Shown piece after piece: positions 14,371 to 61,040 of a stretch of DNA of 64,000 nt (the first letter of the stretch is position 1; each line of letters opens with the position of its first letter). The translations under genes were made by a program, and so were the position numbers. Origin of the DNA: Streptomyces sp. NBC_00289 (GTDB lineage: Bacteria > Actinomycetota > Actinomycetes > Streptomycetales > Streptomycetaceae). A model generated the notes under the pieces. The model was given only the letters and a program-made list of their open reading frames with translations, was not told the DNA's origin and did no database searches. The stretch spans positions 80,808 through 144,807 of the forward strand of contig NZ_CP108047.1 in assembly GCF_041435115.1 (NCBI RefSeq), in the 5' to 3' direction.

Positions 14371-14401
14371 TTGCGTTTGGCTTCTGAGCTGTACGTCAAG
14401 C

Positions 14402-31338: not shown

Positions 31339-31359
31339 CCCGACAAGACAAACAAGGGT

Positions 31360-32210: not shown

Positions 32211-32460
32211 ACCAGAACGCCAGCCGGACCACGTCGTAGCCAGCGTCGAGGACGATGAGGACCGGCAGATCGCCGTCCTTCCAGTGTCCGACCGCGCGCA
32301 GCCGCTCGACCACCTCGCGCAGCTGCTCGGCGGTCACCGCGGTCTCGTCGTCGCATGGCCCGATCCGGACCGCATCCAGCAGCGCGGTCCGGGACGTGCG
32401 GCCCGGCTCCAGGGCGGCGACGACGGAGTACGGCCAGCCGGGGATCATCTGGGCCGAGCC
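32211..32460 (-). pseudogene. Transposase fragment (NF041680-like)
   Basis: MIPGWPYSVVAALEPGRTSR followed by TALLDAVRIGP, QLREVVERLRAVGHWKDGD and LIVLDAGYDVVRLAF matches the central part of a large Streptomyces DDE transposase family. Both ends are missing; the C-terminal side is cut by IS6 copy 1. Confidence 0.55.
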
Positions 32461-37119: not shown

Positions 37120-37970
37120 GTCACGTTGGTGGGGTGTGATGGGTTGATGGCGTGTCAGGGTGTGGTGGGGGCGTGCGTCGGCCTCTGGTCAGGCCGCGGT
37201 GGCCAGGCCGGTGGTGCCGGTGATCTGGTCCCAGATGGTGAAGCGGATGGTCATCTCGAGGCGGTGTTCGGGAGCGGTCATCAGGTGGCGGCGGGGTCGG
37301 AAGTGGGGTGAGATGCCGCTGAACGCGGACAGGAACCGTTGCGCCCCGCCCGGGGAGCGGAAGCCCTTCATGGCGCGCTCGCGCTGCCGGGTTGGCTGGT
37401 GGGAGTTCTCGGCCCGGTTGTTCAGCCCCTTGTGACTGCGGTGCTCGACCGAGCGCATCAGCCGGCGGTGGGCGGCGCCGTAGGAGCGGAGCTTGTCGGT
37501 CACCAGCACCCTGGGCACGCGGCGATGCTTCTTCATCAGCTTGGCCATGAACCGCTTGGCGGCCTTGGTGTCCCGCTTGGATTGGACCAGGATGTCGAGG
37601 ACGTTGCCGTCCTGGTCTACGGCCCGCCACAGGTACTGCCGCTCGCCGTTGACCTTGATGAAGACCTCGTCGAGATGCCATTTGTCGCCGGCCCGCGGCC
37701 GGCGGCGGCGCAGAGAGTCGGCGTAGGCCTGCCCGAACTTCACGCATCAGCGGCGCACGGTCTCGTAGGAGACGATCACGCCGCGGGCGAGCATCAGCTC
37801 CTCCACCTCGCGGAAACTCAGCGGAAACCGGAAGTACAGCCACACGCAGTGGGAGATGATCTCCGCCGGGTACCGATGACCCCTGTATGACGGCGACGCG
37901 CTCCCACGGCAAGACCCTCCCCAGCGTGACCAACCCCAAGATCATCTCATGCCGGTCAGAACAACGTGAC
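37120..37970 (-). mobile_element. IS6-family insertion sequence, copy 2
   Basis: Same ends as copy 1 (GTCACGTTGG; AACGTGAC at the right). The body to about 37820 appears identical to copy 1; the last ~150 bp carry several differences. Confidence 0.8.
37189..37908 (-). pseudogene. IS6-family transposase (copy 2), internal TGA and N-terminal frameshift
   Basis: Carries the same TGA at the Trp position as copy 1 (37749-37747). In addition one C is missing in the CTCCCCAC-equivalent segment near 37903, so the N-terminal codons are out of frame. The DDE-containing part 37189-37743 is intact and identical to copy 1. Confidence 0.8.
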
Positions 37971-38270
37971 ACCGTCCAGGGTGTTGCCGTAGTTGCCCAT
38001 GTAGCCCTCGTACTCGGAACCGGTGGGGCGTCAGGCTCGCGCTCGGGGTCGCGGTGCACACTTCCTCCTCACCGACGCGCAAGGAGATGGGTTCACCGCC
38101 GGTGCCGTCCGGGGTGGTCCACCAGGTGAGGGTGATCTCGTCGTCGATGAGATCGCTGAGTTCGTAGTCCTCGTCGTCCAAGAAGGCGTCACCGCCCTCG
38201 CCGCGGTCCTCTTCCTCTGCATCCTCTTCGTCGCCGTAGTAGTCGTAGGGGTGTCGTCTGACACCGGGGC
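37971..38270 (-). pseudogene. C-terminal fragment of an acidic plasmid-type protein
   Basis: Reads YDYYGDEEDAEEEDRGEGGD, AFLDDEDYELSDLIDDEITL, TWWTTPDGTGGEPISLRVGE and, after a frame change at about 38035, GSEYEGYMGNYGNTLDGVTL. It is broken by IS6 copy 2 at one side and lacks a start at the other. Family not named with confidence. Confidence 0.4.
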
Positions 38271-44896: not shown

Positions 44897-46129
44897 ATGC
44901 GGATTCTCATGGTGGGCGCGGGTGGTGTGGGTACGGCGATCACGAAGATCGCTGCCCGTCGCCCCTTCTTCGAGCACATGGTCGTCGCCGACTACGACCC
45001 GGCGCGATCAGAGGCGGCCGTAGCCGCCCTGGGGGCGGACGGGCGCCGGTTCCATCCGACAAGGGTCGATGCCTCGGACGTGGCGGCCGTGCGGGCGGCT
45101 CTGGCCGAGCACCGCTGCGAGGTCCTGCTCAACGCCACCGACCCCCGGTTTGTCATGCCGCTCTTCGAGGCCGCGCTCGCCGAGCGCGTCCACTACCTCG
45201 ACATGGCCATGTCCCTGTCCAGGCCGCACCTCTCACGCCCGTACGAGGAGTGCGGCGTGAAGCTCGGCGACGAGCAGTTCGCCCAGACGGTTGATTGGGA
45301 GGCGGCGGATCGGCTCGCTCTCGTGGGCATGGGTGTGGAACCGGGCCTCGCGGACGTTTTCGCCCGCTACGCGGCGGACGAGCTCTTCGACGAGATCGAG
45401 GAGATCGGCATCCGTGACGGCGCCAACCTGGTTGTCGAGGGCTACGACTTCGCCCCGACCTTCAGCATCTGGACGACGATCGAGGAGTGCCTGAATCCTC
45501 CCGTCGTCTACGAGGAGGGCCGCGGCTGGTTCACCACGGCGCCGTTCAGCGAGCCGGAGGTCTTCGACTTCCCCGAGGGTATCGGCCCGGTGGAGTGCGT
45601 GAACGTCGAGCACGAAGAGGTGCTGCTGGTCCCGCGGTGGCTGAAGGCCCGGCGGGTCACGTTCAAGTACGGACTCGGCGACGAGTTCATCGGCGTCCTG
45701 CGAACCCTGCACAAACTCGGTCTCGACCGGACGGAGCCCGTGAGCGTCGACAGCGCGGCGGGCGGCGGCGCGGGCAAGGTCGCGGTCTCGCCGAGGAACG
45801 TAGTCGCCGCCTGCCTGCCCGACCCGGCGGGCCTCGGCGACCGCATGCACGGCAAGACGTGCGCCGGCACCTGGGTGAAGGGAACCAGGGACGGGCGGCC
45901 CCGTGAGGTGTACCTGTACCACGTGGTCGACAACCAGTGGTCGATGCGCGAGTACGGCTCCCAGGCCGTGGTGTGGCAGACCGCGATCAACCCCGTCGTC
46001 GCCCTCGAACTCATCGCCTCCGGAGCCTGGCAGGGCCGCGGCGTCCTGGGCCCCGAGGCGATGCCCCCGCAGCCCTTCCTCGATCTCCTCACGGCCTACG
46101 AGGCACCGTGGGGCATACGCGAACAGTGA
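44897..46129 (+). CDS. Saccharopine dehydrogenase-like oxidoreductase
   Basis: A 410-aa NAD(P)-dependent enzyme. The Rossmann start MRILMVGAGGVGTAI and ADYDPARSEAA bind the cofactor; LLNATDPRFVMPLFEAALAE and HYLDMAMS follow the family pattern. The C-terminal catalytic domain includes GMGVEPGLADVFARYAADEL. ATG at 44897 is preferred to 44861 because it starts the beta strand directly. A permease gene follows on the same strand after ~110 bp, so the pair may process an amino acid such as lysine/saccharopine or a polyamine. The actual substrate is unknown. Confidence 0.8.
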   Translation: MRILMVGAGGVGTAITKIAARRPFFEHMVVADYDPARSEAAVAALGADGRRFHPTRVDASDVAAVRAALAEHRCEVLLNATDPRFVMPLFEAALAERVHYLDMAMSLSRPHLSRPYEECGVKLGDEQFAQTVDWEAADRLALVGMGVEPGLADVFARYAADELFDEIEEIGIRDGANLVVEGYDFAPTFSIWTTIEECLNPPVVYEEGRGWFTTAPFSEPEVFDFPEGIGPVECVNVEHEEVLLVPRWLKARRVTFKYGLGDEFIGVLRTLHKLGLDRTEPVSVDSAAGGGAGKVAVSPRNVVAACLPDPAGLGDRMHGKTCAGTWVKGTRDGRPREVYLYHVVDNQWSMREYGSQAVVWQTAINPVVALELIASGAWQGRGVLGPEAMPPQPFLDLLTAYEAPWGIREQ

Positions 46130-46237
46130 CCACTCCACGCGCCGCCGGGCCGCTCCTGCATGCAGGCCCGGTCAGGCCTCCCTACGATACGCGTATGTCT
46201 CGCCTGCGCTGGCCGGCTCGACGGGAGCGAGGGAAAC

Positions 46238-47746
46238 ATGACCGCCGAGGATGCCGCGCCTGCCGCGCGACCCGCAAGTCTGAAGGCCAACGCGATCGGG
46301 TTCGTGGACGCGCTCGTCATCGGGCTCAACGCTACCTCCCCCGCCTACTCGCTGGCGGCCGTGATCGGCCCGGTGGTGGCGCTGGTCGGGATCTACGCAC
46401 CCGGCGTCATGGTCGCGTCCTTCGTGCCGATGCTCTTCATCGCGTCGGCGTTCTACTACCTGAACAAGGTCGACCAGGACTGCGGCACGACCTTCTCCTG
46501 GGTCACCCGCGCCATGGGCCCGTGGGCCGGCTGGCTCGGCGGATGGGCCATCACGATGACCGGAGTCCTGGTCGTCGGCTCGCTCGCCGACGTGGCCGTC
46601 AGCTTCGCCCTGCTCGCCTTCGGCCTCGACAGTTGGGTGGACAACACCTTCGTCCGCCAGCTGATCACCGTACTACTCATCCTCGTCATGACAGCTGTGT
46701 GCGTCATCGGCACCGAGCTGTCGGCCAAGGTGCAGAACGCCCTCATCCTGGCCCAGGTCGCCTGCCTGCTGATCTTCGTGGGCGTGGCCCTCTACGCCGT
46801 CTACAACGGCACCAGCAAATACGACGCGGTGGAACCCGCCTTCAGCTGGCTGAACCCGTTCGGCGCAGGCGGTACGGCACTCACCGGCGGGCTGCTGCTA
46901 GGCGTCTTCATCTACTGGGGCTGGGAGGCAGCGGTCAACCTCACCGAAGAGGTCGAGGACTCCGCGACCGCCCCGGGCAAAGCAGGGCTCTGGTCGACCG
47001 TCATCCTGCTCGTGACCTACGTGTCCGTGGGCTTCGCCGTCGTGGCGTACGCCGGACCGACCTTCCTGGCCGAGAACGCCGACGAAGAGGAGTTCATCTT
47101 CGCCCAGCTCGCCACGGACGTCCTCGGCGGCTGGGACTGGATCCTGCTGCTGGCCGTCTCCACCTCCGCCATCGCCTCCACCCAGACGACGATCATCCCG
47201 GCCTCGCGCACCGCGCTGTCCATGGCCCGCCGCCGGGCACTGCCCGCCCACTACGGGCACATCAGCCCCCGGTTCCGCACGCCCGACGTGAGCACCTGGT
47301 GGGTCACCGGCATCGCCATCGCCTGGTACATCGCGGTGAGCCAGATCAGCGACAACGCCCTCTTCGACTCACTCACCGCGCTCTCCCTGCTCATCGCCTT
47401 CTACTACGCACTCACAGGCCTCGCCTGCGCGGCCTACTACCGCCGCCACCTCTTCGAGAGCGTCCACAACTTCATGTTCATCGGGCTCGGCCCGCTGGTC
47501 GGTACCGGACTGCTCACCTGGCTCCTGGTGCGGTCGGTCGCCGACATGTCCGACCCGGAGAACTCGTACAGCGGCACCTCGTGGTTCGGCCTCGGCCCTC
47601 CCCTCGTGATCGGCATCGGAATCACCCTCGCCGGAGTGATCATCATGGTCGTGTGGCGGCTGCGGGCCCCCACGTTCTGGCGGGAGCGCCCGAGCGTGGT
47701 GGACCCCGCCCTGGTTCACGCCGACGGCCCCCGCAAGAAATCCTGA
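46238..47746 (+). CDS. APC-family amino acid permease
   Basis: A 502-aa protein with about 12 membrane helices. The family start is IGFVDALVIGLNATSPAYSL and DQDCGTTFSWVTRAMGPWAG W, then GVFIYWGWEAAVNLTEEVED in the helix 6 region. The short cytoplasmic C-terminus is charged. ATG at 46238 follows GAGGGA. It is paired with the saccharopine-dehydrogenase-like gene and probably imports its substrate. Confidence 0.88.
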   Translation: MTAEDAAPAARPASLKANAIGFVDALVIGLNATSPAYSLAAVIGPVVALVGIYAPGVMVASFVPMLFIASAFYYLNKVDQDCGTTFSWVTRAMGPWAGWLGGWAITMTGVLVVGSLADVAVSFALLAFGLDSWVDNTFVRQLITVLLILVMTAVCVIGTELSAKVQNALILAQVACLLIFVGVALYAVYNGTSKYDAVEPAFSWLNPFGAGGTALTGGLLLGVFIYWGWEAAVNLTEEVEDSATAPGKAGLWSTVILLVTYVSVGFAVVAYAGPTFLAENADEEEFIFAQLATDVLGGWDWILLLAVSTSAIASTQTTIIPASRTALSMARRRALPAHYGHISPRFRTPDVSTWWVTGIAIAWYIAVSQISDNALFDSLTALSLLIAFYYALTGLACAAYYRRHLFESVHNFMFIGLGPLVGTGLLTWLLVRSVADMSDPENSYSGTSWFGLGPPLVIGIGITLAGVIIMVVWRLRAPTFWRERPSVVDPALVHADGPRKKS

Positions 47747-47884
47747 GTAGGGCGTTGTCATCTCTGAAGGGGTGAGGCTGGTCAAGTGCTGGTGGTGTCC
47801 GGGTTGTTGCCGGTGCGGGTTGGTTTCCGGGCAGGGGCGGATTGCGGCGCGGGGTTGGGCTGTGGCGCCGGGGGCGGTGATGTG

Positions 47885-47976
47885 GAGTTGGGTGTCTCGC
47901 CCCAGTGGGTGTGGTCGTGGCGGTGCAGATCCATGCCCACGATCTGCCGTCCGCCGTAGTCTGGTCGATGGTCCAT
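47885..47976 (-). pseudogene. IS110-like transposase N-terminal scrap
   Basis: MDHRPDYGGRQIVGMDLHRH resembles the first strand of IS110 transposases (xVGxDLHR). Coding sense ends after about 30 codons. Confidence 0.35.
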
Positions 47977-48585
47977 CTCAGGGGCCTCCTGCCTGTGGAC
48001 GGTCGTACTACTTCCTTCTGGACCGAGCATCGTCCGCACCCGGCGGCCCTGGCCGCCTCATCCCGGGGTTCCACAGAAGTCGGCTCGCCTAGAGACACGA
48101 GCTGTGCTGTGACCTGCACCTTCAGTTTGTCTGCCTGAATTGTCCGTGTCCCTAGGCGTAGACGTCTTCGCTGGTCAGGGCGCCAGCAGGGTAGCCGCAG
48201 TCCCTCGACAATTCCGCAAAAACACGGGGTTATTCATGCCGAATTGCCCCTTCTGTGACCCGCTTCAGTGGAGTGTGGCGGGGACTCGAAGAGCGCTACG
48301 TGATCGGGTAGCGTTGCAGCAACGCCCCTGCCTCAAGGAGCTCTTGGCGATCCTCGGAGCGCTGGCCAGCGAGAATGCCCGCGCATAGGGACACGCCGTT
48401 TCGCTATGCTTTGCCGCATCTCCCCAGGTCAGCCAGCATATTGTGACTCTAGGTGACGGACGTTCTGTGGAACCCGGGTCATCCGCCGTGACCAGATGCA
48501 CCCGCCGGGTGCCGTCCTCAAGCCGCTCGACCCGGTGTACGGACACCCCGGCCAGATCCAGCAACAACGTCGTATCGTTGACCAC
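47977..48585 (-). pseudogene. ISL3-family transposase N-terminus interrupted by copy B
   Basis: From 48585: MVNDTTLLLDLAGVSVHRVE, RLEDGTRRVHLVTAD; then copy B; then DEAARAAGCGRCSVQKEVVR on the far side (48062-47977). Taking out the element with one TCATC copy gives an uninterrupted VTADEAARAAGCGRC, the zinc-finger start of ISL3 transposases. The rest of the gene is lost. Confidence 0.75.
48063..48478. mobile_element. Non-coding miniature mobile element, copy B (416 bp)
   Basis: Ends CC(G/C)GGGTTCCACAGAA, flanked by the 5-bp repeat TCATC (48058-48062 and 48479-48483), inside an ISL3 transposase remnant. Same internal plan as copy A: 33-bp repeats at 48146-48178 and, inverted, 48362-48394; both copies share the hairpin CGCTAC..GTAGCG at 48294-48313 (40748-40767 in A). 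No open frame for a transposase. Confidence 0.85.
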
Positions 48586-49321
48586 GCCCGTGGCTCCCCA
48601 GATGATCGTTCTTCTGCCTCAAGAACAGAAATGATCACCCAAGTACCACGGGCGTCCTGCATCCAGGACCGACAACCACTCCACTCATCACGGACTGTGA
48701 CGGGAAGTCAGTACGTACTCCGACACGCACCGCTTAACTTCGAAGACCCGGATTTTCCCGGCCGCGGGGCGGGCCCGCCAGGGCCCGGGATGACTTCGTT
48801 GCGTCCGGTCGCGCGCCCTCCCGACATCGTCACACTGCCAACACTGCCGTGACCTGCACACTCACGAAATCACCGCGACTTTGCAATCGCCCTGACTGAC
48901 CGCCTGCGGCGTCACCCCAAGCACCACAGCGACCTCGCTCTACCGCATCCGTTGTAAGAGATCCGCCGAATGCACACGCCGCCACTCCAGCTCAACTGGG
49001 CCCAAAAGTCGACGAGTTCGAGTCCCCATACATCCCGCATGCCGAACGTGACCAAAATATCAAACACTCCTCAAAGATCAGTAGGACTACACTGCCGTGA
49101 CCGTAAGTATTAATTACTCAATTGAGCAGGGTGGGATTTGGGCATAGTGAAGGCGCTACCCCAAAATTCCTACCCGGGCCTGCGTCATGCACATTTGATG
49201 ACACTTGACCAAATACATTTGGGGCAGGCTGGCCTTTCAGTCCCGAGCCACGCAAACTCCCACCCGACATCCGGGCAGGCCGCCACTCGACCAGCGGCAG
49301 ATCCGGTGAGTGAGGTAAATC
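48586..49321 (+). other. Upstream region of the lanthipeptide cluster
   Basis: No supported gene. The minus strand at about 48870-48960 has a faint helix-turn-helix-like piece that could be transposase debris. The last ~270 bases are AT-rich for this DNA (for example TAAGTATTAATTACTCAATT near 49105) and probably hold the promoter of the lanL operon. GAGTGAGG precedes the lanL ATG. Confidence 0.4.
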
Positions 49322-52078
49322 ATGACGCAACAGCAAGAATCTGCCGAATCGAAAGCCAATACCGATTCGCTTTTGCTTGATGTGGTTCAGGCAGTTTTGG
49401 GGCGAAATGACGGTGGCCACGCCTACACAGTAAGACAAGAGCGCTTCTGGTGTTCCGCTACGCCTAGATGGTTTGCCCCTCGGACGCAGGGGTGGAAGCT
49501 GCATGTGTCCGCGACGCCATTGTCGGCACCGATCATACTGGGGCGCGTAAGCGAGCTTCTTGTGCGGCGTGGGTGCGCCTTCAAGTTTGCAGGGAATCTA
49601 CAGCGCGTGGTGGAGCAGGTATCGGTGAACTACAGTCGCGGCGGCGGAGGCAAGTTCATCACCGTCTACCCCGAAGATGATGAGCAGTTTCGTCAGGTCG
49701 CCTCAGAACTTGATTTCGCAGTCAACGGCTTGCCTGGCCCGAGAATATTGTCCGACCGGCAATTGCGGCCGGGCAGTCTGATTCACTACAGATACGGCGT
49801 TTTCAGCGCCGAGGATCAGCTTACTAACGATGGCGCTTTCGAGTCGATGCTGACAGCGCCGGACGGCTTGCATTTGAGCGATCAGCGGCTTCCGTGGTTC
49901 AGTCCCCCAACATGGGCACCCTCACCATTCCTCGACGAACAGATGGTGGTGCCCACTGCGCCGGAGGCGGTCACTCTGCATGGCCGATTTGCAGCACAGA
50001 GAGCACTTAAACAGGCTAACAAAGGCGGCGTTTATCTGGCGGTTGATGAGCATGTCGGCACTCAGGTCGTCATAAAGCAGGCCCGTGCGCACGTATGCGC
50101 TCGCTTTGATGGTACCGACATCCGTGACACACTACGTCACGAAGCGGCCATGCTGGATGAGTTCGCTCCATTGGGAATCGCACCTGCCAAAGTTGCTCTA
50201 TTCGAGCAACAGAACGACTTGTTCCTCGTTGAGGAATATGTGCCCGGTGTTAAATTGCGCCGCTGGGTTACCGAGTCACTTATCAAGCCGGGCGGACAGT
50301 CATGGCGGCAGGCTGTGTCCATGATCGGAGATTTGGTGGAGCTGCTGGCTACCGCGCACAGGACCGGTCTGGTATTGCGGGATTTCAATCCCAACAATGT
50401 CATGGTGCTCCCTAATGATGAAGTACGGCTGATCGATCTGGAACACGCGGTGAAGCCTGGCGTAGAAGTAACCTCCGTGGAGACTGCCGGATATGCGGCC
50501 CCCGAGGCCACGGAGAGTGCGCATGGTCCGGCTCCGGAGCAGTCGGCGGATCTTTTCAGCCTCGGTGCGACTATCTTCTATGTCATCACTGGAGTCGATC
50601 CGTCTCTGGTCGCTGACCACCCCAGAGAGCGCTCGATCCAAAGTCGGTTGGACCACCTGGCGTCCGCCATGGAAGCCGCTCACCCCGCCCTATCCAGGTT
50701 CGTGCCGCTCATTCGTGGACTGATGACGGATAACCCACAGAACCGTTGGGAAGTACCACAGGTCCGTGCATTTCTGACGAAGCTTCCGAAATCCCTGCCC
50801 GCCACAGCATCAGCACGTTCCAGGAAAAGGACTGGAGCACCTCACCTATCCGGTGAGGTTCAAGACCGGTTGCTCTCAGACGGTCTGACTCATGCGGTGC
50901 GCACCATGACCCCTGATGCTAATTGGCTATGGCCTGCGTCATTCTCAGGGATGACGGCGGACCCTTGTAATGTGCAGCACGGTGCTGCTGGCGTGCTGGC
51001 CGTTTTGACCCGCGCAGCGCAGGCTTACGGCAAGGAATCTCTGCATGATTCGGTCCGCGAGGTCGCGGCTTGGGTTGACGAGCGAGCTTACGTAATTCCC
51101 CGACTGCTTCCCGGGCTTTATTTCGGGCGGTCGGGCACAGCGTGGGCGCTGCACGATGCGGCCAGTTATCTGGGTGACCAACCTATGGTTGAACGGGCCA
51201 TAGAACTGGCCAAGCAGATTCCGGTAAAATGGGACAATCCCGATGTCTGCCATGGACTCGCGGGCGCCGGTCTGGCGCATCTACACCTGTGGCGAGCGAC
51301 CGGAGACTGTGAACTATACGAACGGGCGCTGGCGTATGCGGATGCCGTATACGCTGCCGCCGAGGTTCATGAAGGCCTGGCGCTGTGGCCCATCCCTGCC
51401 GATTTCGATTCCGCGCTAGCCGGCACCGCCCAGTACGGATTCGCTCACGGCGCTGCGGGCGTAGGAGCGTTCATGCTCGCTGCGGCTGTTGCGAGTGGCC
51501 AGGAGAAGTATCTGCAGGCTGCCCTAGCCGCCGGAAGAACTTTGGAGCAAGCGGCCGATGTGGAGCAGGGCGCCGCGTGGTGGCCATCTGGAGACAAGGG
51601 AGATGACTCACGCCTGCCGCACTGGTGCAGTGGCTCCGCCGGTGTGGGCACGTTTTTGATCCGCTTGTGGCAGGCTACCGGCGAGCAGCGTTGGCTAGGC
51701 CTGGCACAAGGGGCTGCCCATGCAGTCATGCAGAACTTGTGGCATACCACGCCTTCTGCCTGTCACGGCCTGGCGGGTCGGGGCGAGTTTCTCCTCGACA
51801 TGGCGCAGTTGACAGGTGAGGCTCATTACCGGGGCCAGGCAGAAGAGGTCGCCGCGATTCTCGAACCGCGTCATGCCTTGCGTGATGGGCTCATGGTACT
51901 GGGCGATGAGAGTGGGCGCGATGTTACTTTGGGTTACAACACGGGATTGAGTGGCGTTCTGGGTTTCTTGCTTCGGCTCCAAGATGGGGGCCAGCGTTGG
52001 TGGATGGCCGACGCCGACATGCCGAAGACGGTTCCTGTCCAGCAGACCACATTGATCGCTCTGCCCGGAGCACGGTAA
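49322..52078 (+). CDS. lanL: Class IV-type lanthipeptide synthetase (lyase-kinase-cyclase)
   Basis: A 918-aa enzyme expected to phosphorylate Ser/Thr of the precursor, eliminate phosphate and close thioether rings. Residues ~1-225 form the lyase region. A Ser/Thr kinase domain follows: Lys in QVVIKQARAH (~252), catalytic loop LVLRDFNPNNVMV (D354, N359) and LIDLEHA (D372). The cyclase domain, ~530-918, keeps zinc ligands: Cys in HWCSGSAG (769) and Cys-His in ACHGLAGRG (814-815). The retained zinc site favours LanL (class IV) over zinc-free LanKC (class III). Four bases separate it from the protease gene. Base composition is lower in GC than its flanks, suggesting transfer. Confidence 0.9.
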   Translation: MTQQQESAESKANTDSLLLDVVQAVLGRNDGGHAYTVRQERFWCSATPRWFAPRTQGWKLHVSATPLSAPIILGRVSELLVRRGCAFKFAGNLQRVVEQVSVNYSRGGGGKFITVYPEDDEQFRQVASELDFAVNGLPGPRILSDRQLRPGSLIHYRYGVFSAEDQLTNDGAFESMLTAPDGLHLSDQRLPWFSPPTWAPSPFLDEQMVVPTAPEAVTLHGRFAAQRALKQANKGGVYLAVDEHVGTQVVIKQARAHVCARFDGTDIRDTLRHEAAMLDEFAPLGIAPAKVALFEQQNDLFLVEEYVPGVKLRRWVTESLIKPGGQSWRQAVSMIGDLVELLATAHRTGLVLRDFNPNNVMVLPNDEVRLIDLEHAVKPGVEVTSVETAGYAAPEATESAHGPAPEQSADLFSLGATIFYVITGVDPSLVADHPRERSIQSRLDHLASAMEAAHPALSRFVPLIRGLMTDNPQNRWEVPQVRAFLTKLPKSLPATASARSRKRTGAPHLSGEVQDRLLSDGLTHAVRTMTPDANWLWPASFSGMTADPCNVQHGAAGVLAVLTRAAQAYGKESLHDSVREVAAWVDERAYVIPRLLPGLYFGRSGTAWALHDAASYLGDQPMVERAIELAKQIPVKWDNPDVCHGLAGAGLAHLHLWRATGDCELYERALAYADAVYAAAEVHEGLALWPIPADFDSALAGTAQYGFAHGAAGVGAFMLAAAVASGQEKYLQAALAAGRTLEQAADVEQGAAWWPSGDKGDDSRLPHWCSGSAGVGTFLIRLWQATGEQRWLGLAQGAAHAVMQNLWHTTPSACHGLAGRGEFLLDMAQLTGEAHYRGQAEEVAAILEPRHALRDGLMVLGDESGRDVTLGYNTGLSGVLGFLLRLQDGGQRWWMADADMPKTVPVQQTTLIALPGAR

Positions 52079-52082
52079 TTTC

Positions 52083-53894
52083 ATGTTCTCCCACGCCAAA
52101 GAAGTGGTGGGAACGGGTGATAAAGGTGGCCTGGAGCGCACTGTGGTGTGGGGCACTGGATTCGCCTTCTCAGATACAGCCTTGCGTGCCGTGTGGCAGA
52201 GCAGTGATTTCCGCACCAATGCCCTGGAGACTTGGGCGTGGACTGACCAGGGGGCACGCCGCGCTGCGATAGCTGTCCCAGGGCTGACGGCAAGCATTCG
52301 GGGGCTATTGCCGTTGAGCGACGGACGAACACTGGTCGTGCGCGCTCTCAATGACCGATGGCAACTCGCTCTTCTGCCGCAGGCCAACTCGCTGGGGCGG
52401 GAGCAGCATGTAGGCGATCTTGCTGTCCGTCACGTGAGGCTTCTTCCCATACCAACTCCCCATGCCCTTGCAATGGCTGCGAGTGTGGATGATGCGAGCC
52501 GGGTTACGCTGTGGTTGGTTCGCGACACCGAACCTTGCCTGACAGCTCAGCTGGTTCTCCCTCCGGACACGGAGCTTCCCGGGAACCCTTCCTGGCTTGA
52601 CACCACCGGCCAGCTCTTGGGCTGCAACCAGGCCCATGCAGGACGAGTCCGCCCCGTAGTGGCTGATCTGAGGAATGGAATCGTCGCTCCGCTACCGGGC
52701 TGCCCGTCCGGTAGCGACTACCGTATCGCTCATACCAGCCGAGTGGGGGGTTGCGCCCTGCTCATGAGGAGTGACTTTGCAGGAACGACTGGGATGGCAT
52801 GGGCGGATTCCAAGGGTGTGAGGGATGTTCATTTCCCTACACCAACTGCGGTGGAAGGCATCGCCACCCCGCTCGCCGTGGACCCGATTGGCCGCCGGAT
52901 AGCCCTGAAGGTTGACCATGGAGCCGCATCTCAACTCTTGGTCTACCGCAATGATGGTGACGGCGCAGACCTGGTTGACACTCCACCAGGGATTCTCCAT
53001 TCGATTGCCCGGTGGAGTGATCACGGCCTGCATCTGGTCCATTCCTCCCCAGCCCAGCGAGCCGATATCGCAACTGTCACCTTCACCCCCACCCCGACGT
53101 GGCATACGCCCGCGGCCAATCCGGCCGATACAGGGGAACCTCTGGCGCACTCGGAGTGGATGGACGGGCCGGCCGGGCCAATTGAGACCGTTGTGTATGG
53201 CGGTCGGAATTGGCGTCAGGCCCCCTATTTGCTGATGGCCTTGCACGGCGGTCCACACCAGGCCTGGCGCCTGGATTTCAATCCGTTCTTTCAGCGTTTG
53301 ACTTCCGCCGGTATCACCGTCGTGGCGCCAAACCAACGCGGGAGTAGCGGCTACAGCCTTGAGCACCGGGACGCTATCCGCGGCAATTGGGGCGGCCCGG
53401 ATTTGGAGGATGTCTGCTATCTGGCCCAAACCCTTGCCGCAGAGCGTCGCCCCATCGCTGAAGCATCACTACTGCTTTTCGGGGTGAGCTACGGCGCATT
53501 CCTTGCCCTGCGCGCCATCACGCGGCTCCCGGAATTGTGGGCCCGCTGTGCACTCGTCGCCCCTTTTTCTTCAGTGGCGAGCCTATATGCTGACGCTAGC
53601 GCCGGGGTGCGTGAATTCTTGCGGACTTCGGAGGCATCCGACCACGTCAACCAGCCATTCCAAGCCTCTCCTGCAACGGCACTTCGCAAGTTCCCACAAG
53701 TGCTCATATTGCACGGAAAGGATGATCCGATGATACCTGTCACCCAGGGCCGGAAGATCCGAACCAGCCTACTGCGTGCCAACGGCCATAGGTCCAGTGG
53801 CCTCGAGTACCTGGAAGTTCCTGGAGGTCATGACGTGCTTTCTCCCTCACCCGATCTCCAGGAACATATCGTCCACTTCCTGCAAGCAAAGTGA
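52083..53894 (+). CDS. S9 prolyl-oligopeptidase-like protease, probable leader peptidase
   Basis: A 603-aa protein: N-terminal beta-propeller-like half (~1-350), C-terminal alpha/beta hydrolase. Catalytic triad candidates are Ser469 in FGVSYGAF, Asp548 in HGKDDPMIP and His583 in GGHDVL. S9 enzymes of this kind are known to trim class III lanthipeptide leaders, and position between lanL and lanA supports that use. No signal peptide, so it acts in the cytoplasm before or during export. It follows lanL almost directly (ATG five bases past its stop codon). Confidence 0.85.
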   Translation: MFSHAKEVVGTGDKGGLERTVVWGTGFAFSDTALRAVWQSSDFRTNALETWAWTDQGARRAAIAVPGLTASIRGLLPLSDGRTLVVRALNDRWQLALLPQANSLGREQHVGDLAVRHVRLLPIPTPHALAMAASVDDASRVTLWLVRDTEPCLTAQLVLPPDTELPGNPSWLDTTGQLLGCNQAHAGRVRPVVADLRNGIVAPLPGCPSGSDYRIAHTSRVGGCALLMRSDFAGTTGMAWADSKGVRDVHFPTPTAVEGIATPLAVDPIGRRIALKVDHGAASQLLVYRNDGDGADLVDTPPGILHSIARWSDHGLHLVHSSPAQRADIATVTFTPTPTWHTPAANPADTGEPLAHSEWMDGPAGPIETVVYGGRNWRQAPYLLMALHGGPHQAWRLDFNPFFQRLTSAGITVVAPNQRGSSGYSLEHRDAIRGNWGGPDLEDVCYLAQTLAAERRPIAEASLLLFGVSYGAFLALRAITRLPELWARCALVAPFSSVASLYADASAGVREFLRTSEASDHVNQPFQASPATALRKFPQVLILHGKDDPMIPVTQGRKIRTSLLRANGHRSSGLEYLEVPGGHDVLSPSPDLQEHIVHFLQAK

Positions 53895-53957
53895 CGACTG
53901 AGACCCCTTAGGCATTCCCGCCTGAGGTCAGAAAAAAATTCACACAAGGATAAGCCC

Positions 53958-54176
53958 ATGGAACTTAATATTGATGCACTCCAGATGCTCCCTGTGGATG
54001 ATCCTCGAGCCGACCAACCCATCGGACTCCAAGGTTGTGAAGGCACATGCGTCTTCACTGCGAACACCGGAAACAACACTCTCCAATCATCATGCGGGTG
54101 CACCTACGTGTGCACAGAGGCCGGGTGCGCCAGCGTCTACGGCAACTGCAGCCACGTCGGTACATGCATATGCTAA
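53958..54176 (+). CDS. lanA: Cys-rich lanthipeptide precursor peptide
   Basis: A 72-aa peptide. The leader MELNIDALQMLPVDDPRADQ carries the LQ-x-LP--DP pattern of class III/IV leaders. The core, starting near GLQ|GCEGTC, holds nine Cys and eleven Ser/Thr and ends ..HVGTCIC. That is a longer and more Cys-rich core than the known small class IV products. AAGGA lies seven bases before the ATG at 53958. Just after the gene is a GGCAGTT/AACTGCC hairpin that may raise its mRNA level relative to the genes downstream. Exact leader/core border is inferred. Confidence 0.85.
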   Translation: MELNIDALQMLPVDDPRADQPIGLQGCEGTCVFTANTGNNTLQSSCGCTYVCTEAGCASVYGNCSHVGTCIC

Positions 54177-54205
54177 CTCGCAGTAAAGGTCGGATGTCAT
54201 CAGCG

Positions 54206-54222
54206 GGCAGTTAAAAACTGCC
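54206..54222 (+). terminator. Hairpin after lanA, possible attenuator
   Basis: GGCAGTT-AAA-AACTGCC, followed by TGTTG rather than a T run. It lies between lanA and the ABC gene, where partial termination or 3'-end protection would give excess precursor mRNA. Confidence 0.55.
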
Positions 54223-54269
54223 TGTTGAAGCCGTTCAGTTGAGCCCCTGAACGTGAAGGAGGCAGCGAA

Positions 54270-56324
54270 ATGGCGTTCGTGCTCGCAGTTTCACGCTGCG
54301 AGCACGAAACCTTGCCGTGCCGCCAACGTAAAAGGCCGGATGGTGTTCATAACCTGACGCGAAGGGACCCAATAGATCTCGCTATGAGACGATCCCCATT
54401 CACCTCATTCCGCAAGGGAAGCCGCTGGCGCCACGAACCCACCCTTCCTACTCTGGATCCTCTGTTCGGGGCGGGGATCCAGTTCACCGACGGGTGGTCA
54501 CGGCACGGCTTCGAAGGCCTGAAAATCGGGTTCTGGGCGATGATCCGTCGCATTCCGCGTCTAGTCGCATTCGCCGTGACCACTGGGTGGCGGGCCGACC
54601 CGATCGCACTCCCCATCGTGGTGATCGCACAGTTACTGCAAGGACTGGTGACCGCCTCCGGGCTTGTCGCAGCCAACCAGGTATTGGTGGGCCTACTGGC
54701 CGCAGGGCCTACTTCGCAGCGCCTAAGGTCGGCGTTGCCCGCACTACTGGTCATGGCAACCGTCGGCGTTGCCGGATCTCTGCTACGGGCAGTCACCGTG
54801 GCAGGGCTGGGGAGGCTGGCGCCTAAAGTGGAGCGCTTGAGCGAAGAGGAGCTGCTCAAGCGCACGACACATGTGGAGCTGGCCACGATCGAAGACAGTG
54901 AATTTCACCGTCTGCTGTCCTCGGCGCGGATGGCGGTGCCCTCTACCCGGCAGCTGCTTACCGGGAGCCTGAGCGTGCTGAACTCACTGATGAGCCTGGT
55001 CGGGGCAGCCGGGGTGATGGGTGCCCTTCATCCAATCCTCCTGCCGCTGCTGATCGGCACGGTAGTGCCAGCAGGCTGGAGAGCGGTATGCGTCGCCCGC
55101 GACCAGCACGCTTCGACCAAGCGCTGGCTGGACCACACCCGCCAGCAGAACGTCCTGACGGGATTGCTGACTGAACGCGGTGCCGCCGCGGAGGAACTGC
55201 GGGTCCACGGACTAGCTGAATTCTTTCTCGCGCACCATCGACGTCTGGCAGGTGCGCACGTGCTGGAACGGTCTCGGCTCAGCCGTGCGGAGGCGTTTGG
55301 CGGTCTCCTCTCCGATGCGCTGTCGGGACTTGCCCGTGGCGCGACTTACGTCGCGCTCGGCATGCTCCTGATTTCCGGGACCATGCCCCTTGCTGTGGCC
55401 AGCACTGCGGTCATTGCAGTACGCACCGCGACGTCCAACCTCACTGCTGTCCTCACCCAAATCAACCAGCTATACGAACACGGACTATTCATCACTGACT
55501 ACCACAAGGCGCTAGAACAGGCTGAGAGCCACAAGATCCCCACAGAAGGACTACCTGTCCCCTATTCTCCGACCGAAATCCGCCTCCGTGGAGTCCGTTT
55601 CGCCTACTCCCCCAATACGCAGCCTGCAGTGGACGGTGTGGATCTCGACATCCGGCGCGGCGAGGTGGTGGCTTTGGTCGGCGCCAACGGTAGCGGAAAG
55701 ACCACGCTGGCACGCCTGATCGCTGGACTGCATCTACCCCAGCACGGCACAATCAGCTGGGATGGCATTGACGCACGCGACCTGGACCGAGCCTCGCTGT
55801 TTTCACACATTGCCGTCATCGGCCAAGATTTCAAACAGTGGCCCGTGACCGCCCGAGTCAACGTCACTCTCGGCCGCACCGATGCCCCGAACCCCGAGGA
55901 GCGGCTGGCCCAGGCGGCCGCACTTTCCGGTGCGGAGCAGCTCACAGCAGATTTGCCAGACGGCTGGGACACCTTGCTGGCCCGGGAGTTCTACGGCGGA
56001 GTCAATCTCTCAGGCGGTCAATGGCAGCGCCTGGCTCTTGCCCGGGCACGCTACCGTCAGGCACACATCCTCATCTGCGACGAGCCCACCGCCGCTCTCG
56101 ACCCCAAGGCCGAGGCCGAAACCTTTGACAAGCTCATGGGCCTTGCAGATGAAGGCCGCACCGTAGTCCTGATCACCCACCGGCTCGCATCGGTGCGCCG
56201 TGCTGACCGCATTTACGTCCTCGCTCATGGCCACATCGCCGAGCACGGCACTCACGACCAACTCATTGCAGCCGGAGGCCTGTTCGCCGACATGTACGAA
56301 ACTCAGCGTCGCCAGTTCGCATGA
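54270..56324 (+). CDS. ABC exporter (membrane domain fused to ATPase)
   Basis: A 684-aa half-transporter. Membrane segments lie at about residues 110-180 and 230-390; the ATPase has Walker A GANGSGKT (471-478), signature LSGGQ (580-584) and Walker B ILICDEPT (600-607), with HRLASVRRADRI at the H-loop. No C39 peptidase domain, consistent with a separate protease. GAAGGAGG precedes the ATG at 54270, but the first ~38 residues look unusual, so a start at 54384 is possible. It should export the modified peptide or give self-protection. Confidence 0.88.
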   Translation: MAFVLAVSRCEHETLPCRQRKRPDGVHNLTRRDPIDLAMRRSPFTSFRKGSRWRHEPTLPTLDPLFGAGIQFTDGWSRHGFEGLKIGFWAMIRRIPRLVAFAVTTGWRADPIALPIVVIAQLLQGLVTASGLVAANQVLVGLLAAGPTSQRLRSALPALLVMATVGVAGSLLRAVTVAGLGRLAPKVERLSEEELLKRTTHVELATIEDSEFHRLLSSARMAVPSTRQLLTGSLSVLNSLMSLVGAAGVMGALHPILLPLLIGTVVPAGWRAVCVARDQHASTKRWLDHTRQQNVLTGLLTERGAAAEELRVHGLAEFFLAHHRRLAGAHVLERSRLSRAEAFGGLLSDALSGLARGATYVALGMLLISGTMPLAVASTAVIAVRTATSNLTAVLTQINQLYEHGLFITDYHKALEQAESHKIPTEGLPVPYSPTEIRLRGVRFAYSPNTQPAVDGVDLDIRRGEVVALVGANGSGKTTLARLIAGLHLPQHGTISWDGIDARDLDRASLFSHIAVIGQDFKQWPVTARVNVTLGRTDAPNPEERLAQAAALSGAEQLTADLPDGWDTLLAREFYGGVNLSGGQWQRLALARARYRQAHILICDEPTAALDPKAEAETFDKLMGLADEGRTVVLITHRLASVRRADRIYVLAHGHIAEHGTHDQLIAAGGLFADMYETQRRQFA

Positions 56325-56459
56325 CTCCCCAACCTTTGCGTGGCCAGCGACCCACGGTCCACCTGCTCTGACGGCCCCGCACTGGCATCACTTCCAGATT
56401 CGTTACCCCAGCGGTGACATCTTCTGAAACGGCTCCACTCCCGAAACATCGAGGTCCCG

Positions 56460-57755
56460 ATGACTACACCCGCATGCACACCCCCTTCGCTCGGCCCCGC
56501 TACCGCGATCCTCATCGACATCGCCGAACGCATGTCCGACCCGGCGCACGTGTTGCGCGCTGCCCCCCACCAGTCCCTGGAGACGTCACTGTTCCAGGGA
56601 CTGCCCGGTGCCGCGATCCTCCTCGCACGCCTCACCGATCAACGCTCTGCATTTGCTGACGCCGCCGTCGCTCACCTGCAGGCCGCGGAAGCAGCCTTGC
56701 CCACACCGAGTGCCGGCATCTCCGCCGGACCTGGCGCTGTCATCACCGCGGCACTCGTCGCTCATTCCATGAATGCCGACCCACGGCTGCTCCGTCTCCT
56801 GACACCAGGTGTGAGATGGCTTTCCGCCCACGCCCAACGCCTCGCTGACCAACAGAACGCCCGCCGAACCGCAGGCCATCGTGGAGCCCTCTGGGAAACC
56901 TACGACGCCGTCTGCGGTCTCGCCGGTATCGGTCGCATCCTTCTCCACGCCCAGCAAACCGGCAGGTCCGCGGCAGAACCTGGACTCACCACCGCACTGC
57001 GGAGCCTCACCGACCTGCTCCATCTCGACGATCAAGGGCGGCCAGGCTGGTGGCTGCCCGCGGCCGACCATCGCCCGCTGTCCAAGCCCCATCCCTCTGG
57101 GCTGGCCACCACCGGTATGGCCCACGGAGTCGCCGGGCCACTCGCCTTCCTCTCAGCCGCGCTGATCGCGGGCGCACAAGTGGACGGGCAAGACCGCGCC
57201 ATACGCAACGCCGCACAATGGCTAATCGCCTGGCGCCGCCCCGACGACCAGAGTTGGCCCTGGCGCGTGACCGGCGATGAACTCGTCGAAGATAAGCACG
57301 CCCCAGGACCACGCAGCGGTCCCCGCGACGTCTGGTGCTACGGAACCGCCGGCGTCGGACGCGCCCTACAACTCGCCGGAACCGCCATCCGCGACCCTAA
57401 AATCTTCCAAACCGGAACCGATGCCATCGCTGCCCTCGCCGACCTACCTCCGAAGCAATGGCAAGCTGCCGGACCAACCGTCTGCCACGGCCGCGCTGGC
57501 ATCCTCCAAGCCGCGATACAAGCTCACCGTCACAGCTCCGATCCCCGACTCGCCTCCCTCACCGATACCGCCGCCTCCTTCATCATCGCGCACCACTGGG
57601 ACACCACCACCCCTTACGGCTTCTCACACCATGACGGCCACGGGCTGAGACACCACGTCGGACTTCACGAAGGCGCCGCAGGAGTCGCGCTCGCTCTCAT
57701 TGAACACTCACACCCCACTCCCTCCGTCTGGGACCTCCCACTCCTACTTCAATAG
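56460..57755 (+). CDS. lanC: Free-standing LanC-type lanthionine cyclase
   Basis: A 431-aa alpha/alpha-barrel cyclase. Zinc ligands are seen as Cys293 (DVWCYGTAGVG) and Cys342-His343 (TVCHGRAG); His222 lies in GMAHGVAGPL, a typical active-site helix, and LHEGAAGVALAL ends the fold. The length fits LanC of class I systems, yet no LanB dehydratase is present. Here it probably assists or follows the LanL cyclase domain. It is the last gene of the operon, 135 bp after the ABC gene. Its composition is more GC-rich than lanL, so it may have joined the cluster separately. Confidence 0.88.
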   Translation: MTTPACTPPSLGPATAILIDIAERMSDPAHVLRAAPHQSLETSLFQGLPGAAILLARLTDQRSAFADAAVAHLQAAEAALPTPSAGISAGPGAVITAALVAHSMNADPRLLRLLTPGVRWLSAHAQRLADQQNARRTAGHRGALWETYDAVCGLAGIGRILLHAQQTGRSAAEPGLTTALRSLTDLLHLDDQGRPGWWLPAADHRPLSKPHPSGLATTGMAHGVAGPLAFLSAALIAGAQVDGQDRAIRNAAQWLIAWRRPDDQSWPWRVTGDELVEDKHAPGPRSGPRDVWCYGTAGVGRALQLAGTAIRDPKIFQTGTDAIAALADLPPKQWQAAGPTVCHGRAGILQAAIQAHRHSSDPRLASLTDTAASFIIAHHWDTTTPYGFSHHDGHGLRHHVGLHEGAAGVALALIEHSHPTPSVWDLPLLLQ

Positions 57756-58029
57756 GCCTGCGTTCCGCAGTTGATGGCGGGTTCTCGGCACGGATGAGGG
57801 CGTTGTTGCAGGTCAGTCCCCCTGTTCCCTTCGGGTGCGCCTTGCCGGCGTGAAAACATGGCTGCGGCGCCTGCCCGCCGACGCCGGTAGCTCGTTGGGA
57901 CGTTGAGCCCGTAGGTCAGTCTGGTGCCGGGGCCGCAGAGGGGCCACGCACTGTTGCCATCGAGCACGCCGGTCAGATTTTCGCTCCCCCCGCGGCCCCC
58001 TGGTGTCGGCGTACTCTCGCTTCGGGCCG
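57756..58029. other. No gene recognised, between lanC and IS21
   Basis: Minus-strand frames are open but none has a recognisable product or good start. No terminator with a clear T-tract was found. Confidence 0.3.
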
Positions 58030-58057
58030 GGCCGGTACGTTTGAACGTCCCCAGGTG

Positions 58058-58828
58058 TTAGGCCACTTCGTTCTCCCGCTCGATGGCCTGGAGGCGGTTC
58101 TTGAGCCGGTAGCTCGGGCCGTTGATCGCGATCACTTCGCAGTGGTGGAGGAGCCGGTCGAGGATCGCGGTGGCGAGGACCTCGTCGCCGAACACCTGTC
58201 CCCATTCGCTGAAGGTCTTGTTGGAGGTCAGGATGATGGAGCCCTTCTCGTAACGCTTGGAGATGACCTGAAAGACCAGGTTCGCCTCGGCCCGTTCGAG
58301 GGGCTGGTAGCCCACCTCATCGATCACAAGGACGCTCGGCCGCAGGTAGGTGCCGAGTTTGTTGACCAGCCGTCCGGCCGACTCGGCAGCCTTCAGATTG
58401 CGGACCATGTCGTCGAGACTGGTGAAGTAGATCGAGTAGCCGGCCCGGCAGGCCGCGACAGCGAGAGCGACAGCGATATGCGTCTTGCCCACTCCCGGTG
58501 GCCCCAGCAGCGCGGCGTTCGCCTTGCCGTCGACGAAGGAGAGGCTGGCGAGGTCTTTGACCTTGCGCGGGTCGAGCTCGGGCTGGAACGAGAAGTCGTA
58601 TTCGTCCAGCGTCTTGTGGTGTGGCAGCTTGGACAGTCGCAGGCCCTGGCGGAAGCGGCGGTCGTCGCGGACGGCGAGCTCTTCGGAAAGGACCAGGTCG
58701 AGGAAGTCGAGGTAGCCCATCTTCGCCTCGTCGGCTCGGCGGGTGTACTCGTTGATGGTCTCCGCCAGGTGGGGCAGGCCGAGCTTGCCGGCCGTGGTGC
58801 GGATGCGGTTGCCGGTCAGCTCGCTCAA
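58058..58828 (-). CDS. istB: IS21 transposition helper ATPase IstB
   Basis: A 256-aa AAA+ ATPase that assists target choice. Walker A is GPPGVGKT, Walker B VLVIDEVGYQ, sensor region SIILTSNKTFSEWGQVFGD. Its ATG overlaps the istA stop (ATGA), so translation is coupled. Intact. Confidence 0.92.
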   Translation of the reverse strand: MSELTGNRIRTTAGKLGLPHLAETINEYTRRADEAKMGYLDFLDLVLSEELAVRDDRRFRQGLRLSKLPHHKTLDEYDFSFQPELDPRKVKDLASLSFVDGKANAALLGPPGVGKTHIAVALAVAACRAGYSIYFTSLDDMVRNLKAAESAGRLVNKLGTYLRPSVLVIDEVGYQPLERAEANLVFQVISKRYEKGSIILTSNKTFSEWGQVFGDEVLATAILDRLLHHCEVIAINGPSYRLKNRLQAIERENEVA

Positions 58829-60264
58829 GACGACTCCTTCGTCGGGGAGTTGGTGGTGAAGGGCCGGGTGCCGGTCAGTTCGTCATAGACCGACAGCGGC
58901 CGCCGCCCGACCTCGATCTGGGTTGCAGCGGCCCGGTTCAACAGGGCCTGCAAGGGCCCGATGCGACCCGCCGCGGGGAACTCGCTCTGCGGTGGTGGCG
59001 GCTCGTCGCCCGTCGTAGTGCGGCGGTTCTTGCCGGTTGGCAGGCCGTCCCAGTGCTCATCCTGCTTGACAACCACGCCGCGGCCGACCGCCCGCGGATG
59101 GCTGGACAGCAACGTCTCGCCGCTGGCATCGGGGACGGTCGTGTGCAGCATGACCTGGGATTTCGTCGCTCTGATCTCCACCAGCTGACGCGGGCGGACC
59201 TTGCGGGCGGGCACCGAGTAGAGGTTCCCGCCGAACGCGACCAGACAGTCCTTGCCCACCGGCCGCAGATGCCGCTCGGCCACCAGATAGGGCGAGGACG
59301 GCAACGGCTTCAGGGCGGCGTGATCCCGGGCGGCCCGGTGTCCGATGACCTCGTGGTGGGTGGCGTGGGTGCGGGCGCGTCGCTGCGGCACCCACGCCAA
59401 GAACGCGGCATCCAACTCCTCGAGCGAGGAGAACGCCCGCCCGGCCAGCACGTGATCACGCACGATCAACACCTGGCGTTCGACCCGACCCTTCCCGGTG
59501 GGCCGGTAGGCGGCCAGCACGTCGATGTCGAAGTCGTAGTGGCCGGCGAAGCCGACCGCTTCCGGATGCAGCGGAACCGCCTCACCGGGAGCGACGTGCC
59601 GGCGCACGACGGTCTTGGTCCGGTCGTAGACGATCGACATCGGCACCCCGCCGAAGTGCGCAAATGCCCGCCGGTGGCAGTCGAAGAAGGTCTGCAGGTC
59701 CTGGCTCGTGGTGAAGCAGCAGAACGGATCGCGCGAGTACGACAGCACCATATGGAACGAGTAGACCTTCGGGATTCCCAGGTGGGCGAGGATCTTGCCT
59801 TCATCGCCCCAGTCGACCTGAGCCTGGGCCCCGGGAACCACCTCGAAGCGGCGGTGCATACCCGCCAACTCCCGCGGCTCGATCCCCAGTTCACCCGCGA
59901 TCCGCGGCCGGGCCTCCTGCAGATAGAGCTTGACCCGCTGGTAGTTGATCGTCGAGCCGTACTCCTTCACCAGGCGTTCGTGCACCACAGCACCCTTGAT
60001 GAGGATCTCTGCCCGCAGCATCGCGTCGATCAACGGGGCGACCTCGTCGACCGCCTTCTTCCGGGGCCGGCCGTTCGACGTCCGCCTCGGCGGCACCGAC
60101 GCCGCCGTGCTCGACAGATACTTGCGGACCGTCTTGCGGTCCAGCCCAGTCTCCTTGGCCACCTCGGTCAGACTGACCGCCCCTGACTCGACCAGAGCAC
60201 GGAACCGCCGCAGTTCCAGCCAGCGCTGCGGGTCCAAAACCACCGCGTCACCACCCTCCGCCAC
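58825..60264 (-). CDS. istA: IS21 transposase IstA
   Basis: A 479-aa transposase. N-terminal HTH (VSLTEVAKETGLDRKTVRKY), then an rve-type DDE core: QAQVDWGDEGKI, VPMSIVYDRTKTVV, and AAYRPTGKGRVERQVLIV. A C-terminal beta domain follows (CLVAFGGNLYSVPARKVRP). Complete frame from an ATG at 60264. Confidence 0.92.
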   Translation of the reverse strand: MAEGGDAVVLDPQRWLELRRFRALVESGAVSLTEVAKETGLDRKTVRKYLSSTAASVPPRRTSNGRPRKKAVDEVAPLIDAMLRAEILIKGAVVHERLVKEYGSTINYQRVKLYLQEARPRIAGELGIEPRELAGMHRRFEVVPGAQAQVDWGDEGKILAHLGIPKVYSFHMVLSYSRDPFCCFTTSQDLQTFFDCHRRAFAHFGGVPMSIVYDRTKTVVRRHVAPGEAVPLHPEAVGFAGHYDFDIDVLAAYRPTGKGRVERQVLIVRDHVLAGRAFSSLEELDAAFLAWVPQRRARTHATHHEVIGHRAARDHAALKPLPSSPYLVAERHLRPVGKDCLVAFGGNLYSVPARKVRPRQLVEIRATKSQVMLHTTVPDASGETLLSSHPRAVGRGVVVKQDEHWDGLPTGKNRRTTTGDEPPPPQSEFPAAGRIGPLQALLNRAAATQIEVGRRPLSVYDELTGTRPFTTNSPTKESS

Positions 60265-60415
60265 CCTTCACCGGACGAGCAGAAGAGTGCCGGGCACCAC
60301 GATTCACCGCACCATCAAGCGTCCCTTTTCACTCGTACGCGACCGGGGACGATCGTGTGTACGCCGACACCTGGGCAGGCGTCGGCCCGTACGGATCGAT
60401 ATCAGGGAGTTGTGC

Positions 60416-60550
60416 ATGGCGGACACCGACGACGGTGGCGTCGAGGAGATCGAGCAGGCCGAGGAGCTCGTGGCCCGTGTCGCGGCGATCGATATCGCCA
60501 AGGCGTCGGGCATGGTCTGTGTGCGGGTGCCGCACGAGGACAAGCCCCAG
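60416..60550 (+). pseudogene. IS110-family transposase N-terminal fragment
   Basis: EELVARVAAIDIAKASGMVC then VRVPHED is the first strand-turn of an IS110-type DEDD transposase (Asp in AAIDIAK). The rest is absent. Confidence 0.6.
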
Positions 60551-61040
60551 ACCTCCGGAAGCCGCTCGCGTGCGAGCCAGCGACCTGCGTGGTTGTCCAT
60601 TCGAACAACGGCGGCTCGAGGTTTAGATATCTGACGGAGCGTCAGTAACATAGACCCAGCTCAGAGCATAGGGACGTCAACCTAGGGTTGTCGAAAATCT
60701 CAACGACTTTCCTTAATCGAACAAACTCGAACTTCCGGAGGTCTGAGCCCGGCAAGCGCGTGCAGCGGGTCTTCAACACCGTCGCGACCAGCGGCGCGAT
60801 TCTGGACCTGGCCGACCACCTGGTCTGCCAGGGGCCGCCGGACACGACGCGCGGCCTTGCACCACTCCGTCGCCGCGGGGACGGACCGCAGGTGCACCCG
60901 CTCAAGCGCGCCCACACCTACACCCTCTACACCCTCGAGGAGCGCGCGCAGCCGGTTGGCGGTGTTGCCGCCCGTAACCGCGTGAGGAGCAACGCCACCC
61001 GCAAGGACGACCTGAAGCTGCGACCCGATGCCCTTCTCCG
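60551..61040. other. Unassigned stretch before the helicase
   Basis: A plus-strand frame from about 60688 reads NTVATSGAILDLADHLVCQG but has no recognisable family; it may be transposon debris. Nothing else seen. Confidence 0.25.

Follow-up and report, generated by a model that had tools for sequence, protein, structure and literature searches.

Closest described systems

The classes of lanthipeptides are customarily regarded as closed enzyme sets, and venezuelin is a class IV type. SflA and SgbL are given as further class IV types in the literature. Clusters of this kind contain LanL, a synthetase with lyase, kinase and zinc-cyclase domains, and an ALQxL-type precursor. Here we describe a cluster from a 64-kb stretch of DNA of Streptomyces sp. 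NBC_00289 (the window), which has both of these features and adds to them a free-standing LanC of the class I lineage and a precursor core with nine Cys. Compared with class I clusters, built around LanB and LanC, it has neither LanB nor the FxLD leader, and dehydration would have to come from LanL. The cluster is a variant of class IV and not a new class.

Clusters holding class-defining enzymes of other classes are very few according to the section of Walker et al. 2020 (PMC7268733) that deals with them. Like the window, they bring together class-defining enzymes of two classes; that section describes six clusters of LanM with LanB/LanC, and LanL with LanC is not mentioned there. Titles and abstract openings of the open-access literature searched contained no description of a cluster with LanL and a free-standing LanC.

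Organization of the locus

Contig C2, of 144.8 kb, is one of six in a genome of 11 Mb, and the window makes up its final 64 kb. The cluster, at 49322-57755, consists of five genes, all on the plus strand:

49322..52078, plus strand: lanL, class IV lanthionine synthetase of 918 residues (NF038150; PF25816, PF00069, PF05147)
52083..53894, plus strand: S9 (prolyl-oligopeptidase family) protease, probable leader peptidase (PF00326)
53958..54176, plus strand: lanA, precursor of 72 residues with an ALQxL leader and a nine-Cys core (NF038157)
54270..56324, plus strand: ABC exporter (PF00005)
56460..57755, plus strand: lanC, free-standing class I-type cyclase of 431 residues (PF05147, 133.2 bits)

All five open reading frames are uninterrupted, and their coordinates confirm the gene order (lanL, S9 protease, lanA, ABC exporter, lanC) given in an initial annotation of this DNA. 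The LanB dehydratase that stands beside LanC in class I clusters is lacking at this locus, and the absence reported in that annotation extends to the whole window, where 20 LanB queries gave a best match of E = 0.006, outside the cluster. Plasmid records contained no near copy of the cluster, only the end of an IS110-family element being matched. No known RNA families were found within 46000-61000, and promoter and terminator scans gave nothing above chance.

In the same genome, all LanB matches lie on the 10.6-Mb contig C1. LanC might thus serve another substrate in trans, such as a class I precursor that one of the LanBs on the chromosome dehydrates. We consider this quite unlikely, because each LanB on C1 (C1:162097, 10463127, 7155277) has its own adjoining LanC-like match, only 28-31% identical to the window LanC, and because 48000-58100 contains no small open reading frame (30-110 residues) in which an FxLD-like motif precedes Cys.

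The LanL synthetase

LanL scores 1061.8 bits against the class IV model NF038150 (cut-off 650) and 459.9 bits against the class III model, below the cut-off of 575. Its three Pfam domains correspond to a RamC_N lyase-type N-terminus, a kinase and a zinc LanC domain. The zinc ligands of the cyclase domain, which distinguish class IV synthetases from class III LanKC enzymes, are present as C769/C814/H815, as expected from the initial annotation, and are the same in 92 of 93 aligned LanL rows. At columns conserved in at least 95% of 92 other LanLs, the protein keeps the majority residue in 138 of 144; the six departures (positions 35, 134, 154, 225, 525 and 718) affect none of the likely zinc or catalytic positions examined. 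On this evidence LanL is a class IV synthetase with its likely lyase, kinase and zinc-cyclase residues retained.

That LanC substitutes for a dead LanL cyclase is ruled out, since the LanL residues examined are intact in the window. They are also intact in the rows L038, L179, L180 and L181, which belong to a second group of clusters described below, and the L228 protein of that group has the same motifs (loci are numbered L and genomes G throughout).

In a tree of 93 LanL rows (quick mode, L228 left out), six LanLs from S9-associated loci (L155, L157, L167, L209, L212 and L227) form a group with that of the window (SH-aLRT 92), and none of them has a LanC; long branches meet near the window LanL, which leaves its immediate sister uncertain. 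At 18 of the 103 other LanL loci, as in the window, LanL has an S9 gene as its direct neighbor, a count that leaves out three weak or distant matches (L078, L176, L197); the 103 loci are not all different, five LanL contigs (for example L055 and L156) being common to the GTDB genomes and the genus sample. These S9-type class IV clusters (L155, L157, L166, L167, L177, L178, L209, L212, L217, L227 and eight Actinomadura loci) also share the CxxTCxxT core start where aligned (L155, L166, L209 and L167-type), whereas LanC is found in none of the 18.

Integrity and origin of the free-standing LanC

LanC matches the solved cyclases MadC (8byk) and NisC (2g02). In the alignment with NisC, its residues C293, C342/H343, H222 and D149 fall on the zinc and acid/base residues of that enzyme, the roles of which are those given in PMC9889658, and the Cys/Cys-His zinc site recognized in the initial annotation corresponds to C293 and C342/H343. 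Of the 61 columns that show at least 85% conservation among 29 related LanCs (a set without L037 and L038), the protein keeps 59. With the conserved residues kept in LanL and LanC alike, both zinc cyclases of the cluster are apparently active.

The closest relatives of the window LanC are about 45% identical to it. In a tree of 42 LanC sequences (IQ-TREE, careful mode), it falls in a 100/100 clade with L031 and L105-L109; five of these six clade-mates have a full LanB next to them, and L031 has a piece of one. A LanB profile match was obtained at 33 of the 36 related LanC loci fetched, the match being a piece at a contig end in L030, L032 and L034. Where loci were taken as the best matches in two samples of genomes, LanB accompanies LanC in 20 of 20 and 3 of 3, with at most four LanC candidates scored per genome and the 20 being among the best of the matches listed. 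The loci without a LanB match are L035 (a short contig), L037, which lacks zinc ligands and is labelled class I in the tree despite having no LanB, and L038, which lies beside LanL.

The tree position, the LanB genes beside related LanCs and the lack of LanC at related LanLs together indicate that a class I LanC was added to a class IV cluster. Later recruitment of LanC, one of two explanations offered in the initial annotation, is therefore well supported, with LanC nesting in class I and the LanLs that group with the window LanL having no LanC. Sequence comparison establishes which genes are present, that they are intact with conserved residues, and that LanC derives from class I.

Two loci from this set have features of their own. 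L031 (10321-13078) contains a LanC 41% identical to that of the window, only a short LanB piece and an adjoining integrase-core gene, and is apparently a class I cluster in decay. In L037, the LanC-like protein without zinc ligands is encoded at 9536-10777, with no LanB nearby and a kinase-type protein at 12624-14636.

Distribution of the LanL and LanC pairing

The genus sample consisted of 392 genomes of a larger group, 69 of which have a LanL match (E ≤ 1e-100). Scoring at most two LanL candidates per genome gave 81 rows, equivalent to 80 places after joining two pieces of one gene; their surroundings (the window, L038 and 78 further loci) span about 8 kb on each side, less at contig ends. 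A free-standing LanC is found near LanL at five of the 80 places: the window, L038 (genome G018), L179 (G075), L181 (G084) and L228 (G327). The other 75 have none nearby, some surroundings ending at contig ends, and this agrees with the initial statement that class IV clusters do not normally have a second cyclase. In GTDB species genomes, a free-standing LanC is present at 0 of 24 LanL loci, and there is none at a further LanL in G454 (50% identical). These pairing counts are separate from matches in plasmid records (64 distant LanC and 203 LanL-type), and the second match in L226 comes from a fragment of the LanL there, read in another frame. The exact gene set of the window occurs in no other sampled genome.

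The four other pairings form a second set, with the order lanL-lanA-lanC (L038, 8212-9697; L179, 6614-8538; L181, 7054-8459; L228, 4981-6418). Like the window, they have a free-standing LanC beside LanL. Their precursors are short and of the "MCCDT" type (three of them in L179), and they have their own set of LanCs, with zinc ligands intact in these and in the LanLs. They differ from the window in that their LanCs lie across a 94/100 branch from the window LanC, that the LanLs of L038, L179 and L181, together with that of the LanC-less L180, form their own starred clade, and that no S9 gene was detected there. The tree set was picked by similarity to the window LanC, and this branching holds for that set and not for class I LanCs at large.

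Since these four pairings belong to a different set, the simplest reading of the trees is that the association of LanL and LanC arose at least twice. On the LanC tree, the starred branches require the label "beside LanL" to change at least twice and, with the LanL tree, rule out a single common origin of all the pairs. The presence of the second set in four genomes indicates that the combination is viable, and this set may be the better system for two-cyclase class IV peptides.

The LanA precursor

LanA scores 23.1 bits against the "ALQxL family class IV lanthipeptide" model NF038157 (cut-off 19) and joins a class IV leader to a Ser/Thr/Cys core. Its last 49 residues contain nine Cys, the number initially reported for the core, and 11 Ser/Thr, the border between leader and core being a guess. 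In an alignment of LanA with seven precursors from other LanL clusters, LQxL and CxxTCxxT are invariant in all eight sequences. Past CxxTCxxT, LanA runs for about 40 more residues with seven additional Cys, an extension seen in 0 of the 7 other precursors. The nine core Cys compare with a maximum of six among 30 other candidate class IV precursors, after one string (L226) was dropped as spurious. A search of the 391 other genomes of the genus (E 0.01) and of plasmid records (E 1) turned up no LanA homologue. The initial annotation had suggested that a nine-Cys core might need two cyclases; the location of seven of the nine Cys in the extension would fit such a need, in this one case.

A locus with a LanL 51% identical to that of the window, L155, contains four tandem precursors at 5271-6614, three of them 65-68 residues in length with 2-3 core Cys. 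These three are likewise long, yet Cys-poor.

The leader of LanA reads MELNIDALQMLP, in which LNID only loosely resembles an FxLD box. At the N of LNID, D is found in each of the 30 other precursors that were retrieved with one pattern; the pattern admitted D, N or E only, and a few candidates outside it (for example those of L169 and L178) have S. Class I precursors next to two sister LanCs contain FHLD and FDLD. A drift of LNID towards FNLD may be suspected from these motifs, as a lead and not a result.

Protease, exporter, base composition and the edge of the cluster

LanPB is the name proposed by Walker et al. (PMC7268733) for the prolyl oligopeptidases found in some class III clusters, and a role of a prolyl oligopeptidase in class III maturation appears in the title of a cited reference.

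The start codon of the ABC exporter is uncertain, most homologues aligning from about residue 40-65. Alignments of at least 450 residues were obtained at 5 of 32 LanC loci (41% identity in L036 and 33-34% in the other four) and at 0 of 103 LanL loci. Exporter-like genes are present in 267 of 295 genus genomes (E ≤ 1e-70), the best being about 48-50% identical. The derivation of the exporter from a class I cluster is weakened by this count and, with closer relatives (about 48%) widespread in the genus, is only a possibility.

The initial annotation had singled out lanC as higher in guanine-plus-cytosine (GC) content than lanL. The direction is correct (66.9% against 59.6%; third-position GC 0.703 against 0.623, P = 0.004), but the exporter gene has the same composition. 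Third-position GC is 0.62 in lanL, 0.64 in the S9 gene, 0.61 in lanA, 0.70 in the exporter gene and 0.70 in lanC; the first three genes together differ from the last two (P = 5e-5), whereas exporter and lanC do not differ (P = 1.0). The step in composition therefore falls after lanA and not at lanC alone, which rules out that LanC alone is foreign by base composition.

Two mobile elements follow lanC:

57801..58003, plus strand: left part of an IS110-family element, matching at 96-100% the region upstream of IS110 transposase genes in Streptomyces plasmids
58003..60371, minus strand: IS21-family element (IstA, IstB) inside the IS110 copy (PF01695, rve/Mu-transpos_C_2, inverted ends)

The left part of the IS110 element begins 45 bp past the lanC stop codon, this border being inferred from match starts at 57801-57810, and the match resumes beyond the IS21 insertion at 60362-60547 and 60746-60833. 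The position of lanC at the edge of the cluster, adjoining both elements, suits an explanation in which LanC is carried along as a passenger. On this view it ended an earlier class I cluster, which lost its LanB and precursor as mobile elements joined the two pieces, and LanL alone would make the product. The composition common to exporter and lanC and the restriction of long exporter alignments to LanC loci would also be expected of such a remnant. The related LanC of L031 has, well inside its contig, no more of a LanB next to it than a short piece (35 bits over 138 residues; PF14028 at 6.8e-5, just below the cut-off), so that decay of this kind does happen. Against it stand the full length and conserved columns of lanC, the lack of any LanB remnant in the window, the unusual Cys content of the LanA core, the recurrence of the pairing in other genomes and the closer relationship of the exporter to the widespread genus family than to class I exporters. 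We regard the passenger explanation as a real possibility, though not a probable one.

Proposed roles of the two cyclases

The reading we favor, for which we judge the chances to be about even, is that a class IV cluster (lanL, S9 leader peptidase and lanA) captured a class I LanC as an auxiliary cyclase, perhaps together with the ABC exporter. We infer that LanC acts on LanA, and likewise the choice of rings, the order of steps and the division of labor. Ser/Thr residues of LanA would be phosphorylated and eliminated by LanL, which can itself close rings and would close the ancestral CxxTCxxT part. After this dehydration, LanC would assist as a further zinc cyclase, acting on the C-terminal extension with its many Cys. 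The leader would then be removed by the S9 protease and the product exported by the ABC protein.

Several observations weigh against such an auxiliary role. LanL already owns an intact cyclase domain, and the leader of LanA is without the FxLD box of class I. As the last gene, 45 bp from the IS110 end, lanC lies where a leftover would be expected. Identity to the class IV relatives used for comparison is 42-51%, and the precursor comparison therefore bridges a large distance. L180 has nearly the same precursor as the second set without a nearby LanC, its genome (G327) carrying LanC at another LanL locus. The initial annotation had regarded a LanC confined to this one strain as counting against its proposal: the setting of the window LanC is indeed seen in one genome only, whereas a different pairing of LanL and LanC is present in four others.

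LanC could have some other role on the dehydrated peptide, as a scaffold or in the addition of an external thiol, with no ring closure. In mammals, LanC-like proteins join glutathione and other thiols to dehydroamino acids, as stated in PMC9889658 and in the title of a cited reference. By sequence, the window LanC is a class I lanthipeptide cyclase, and nothing specific points to such a role, which we consider highly improbable.

If the capture of LanC as an auxiliary cyclase is correct, cyclization is separable from, and can be added to, a fused synthetase in nature, and the precursor features that pick the cyclase for each ring become testable. A natural route to longer, more heavily bridged peptides would also be suggested. 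A broader version, which seems to us rather doubtful, is that class IV synthetases gained LanC repeatedly (at least twice) and that the precursor became adapted to both enzymes, with LNID moving towards FNLD, the seven-Cys extension for LanC and CxxTCxxT for LanL.

Flanking regions

On the upstream side of lanL, positions 48474-48749 match plasmid DNA that carries the annotation of an ISL3 family transposase. On the other side, 61041-63557 contains a gene with helicase-associated domains, and the contig end (63790-64000) is a row of strong hairpins with a DNA fold z-score of -5.5. This end presumably resembles a linear-plasmid telomere, and the cluster would therefore sit about 6 kb from the end of the plasmid. 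Further away, 31359-32211 and 37120-37971 are similar stretches, about 79-83% identical to IS6-family transposase regions of a Streptomyces plasmid, and at 20487-20927 there is about 76% identity to a gene on a plasmid whose annotation names a Pycsar system effector family protein.

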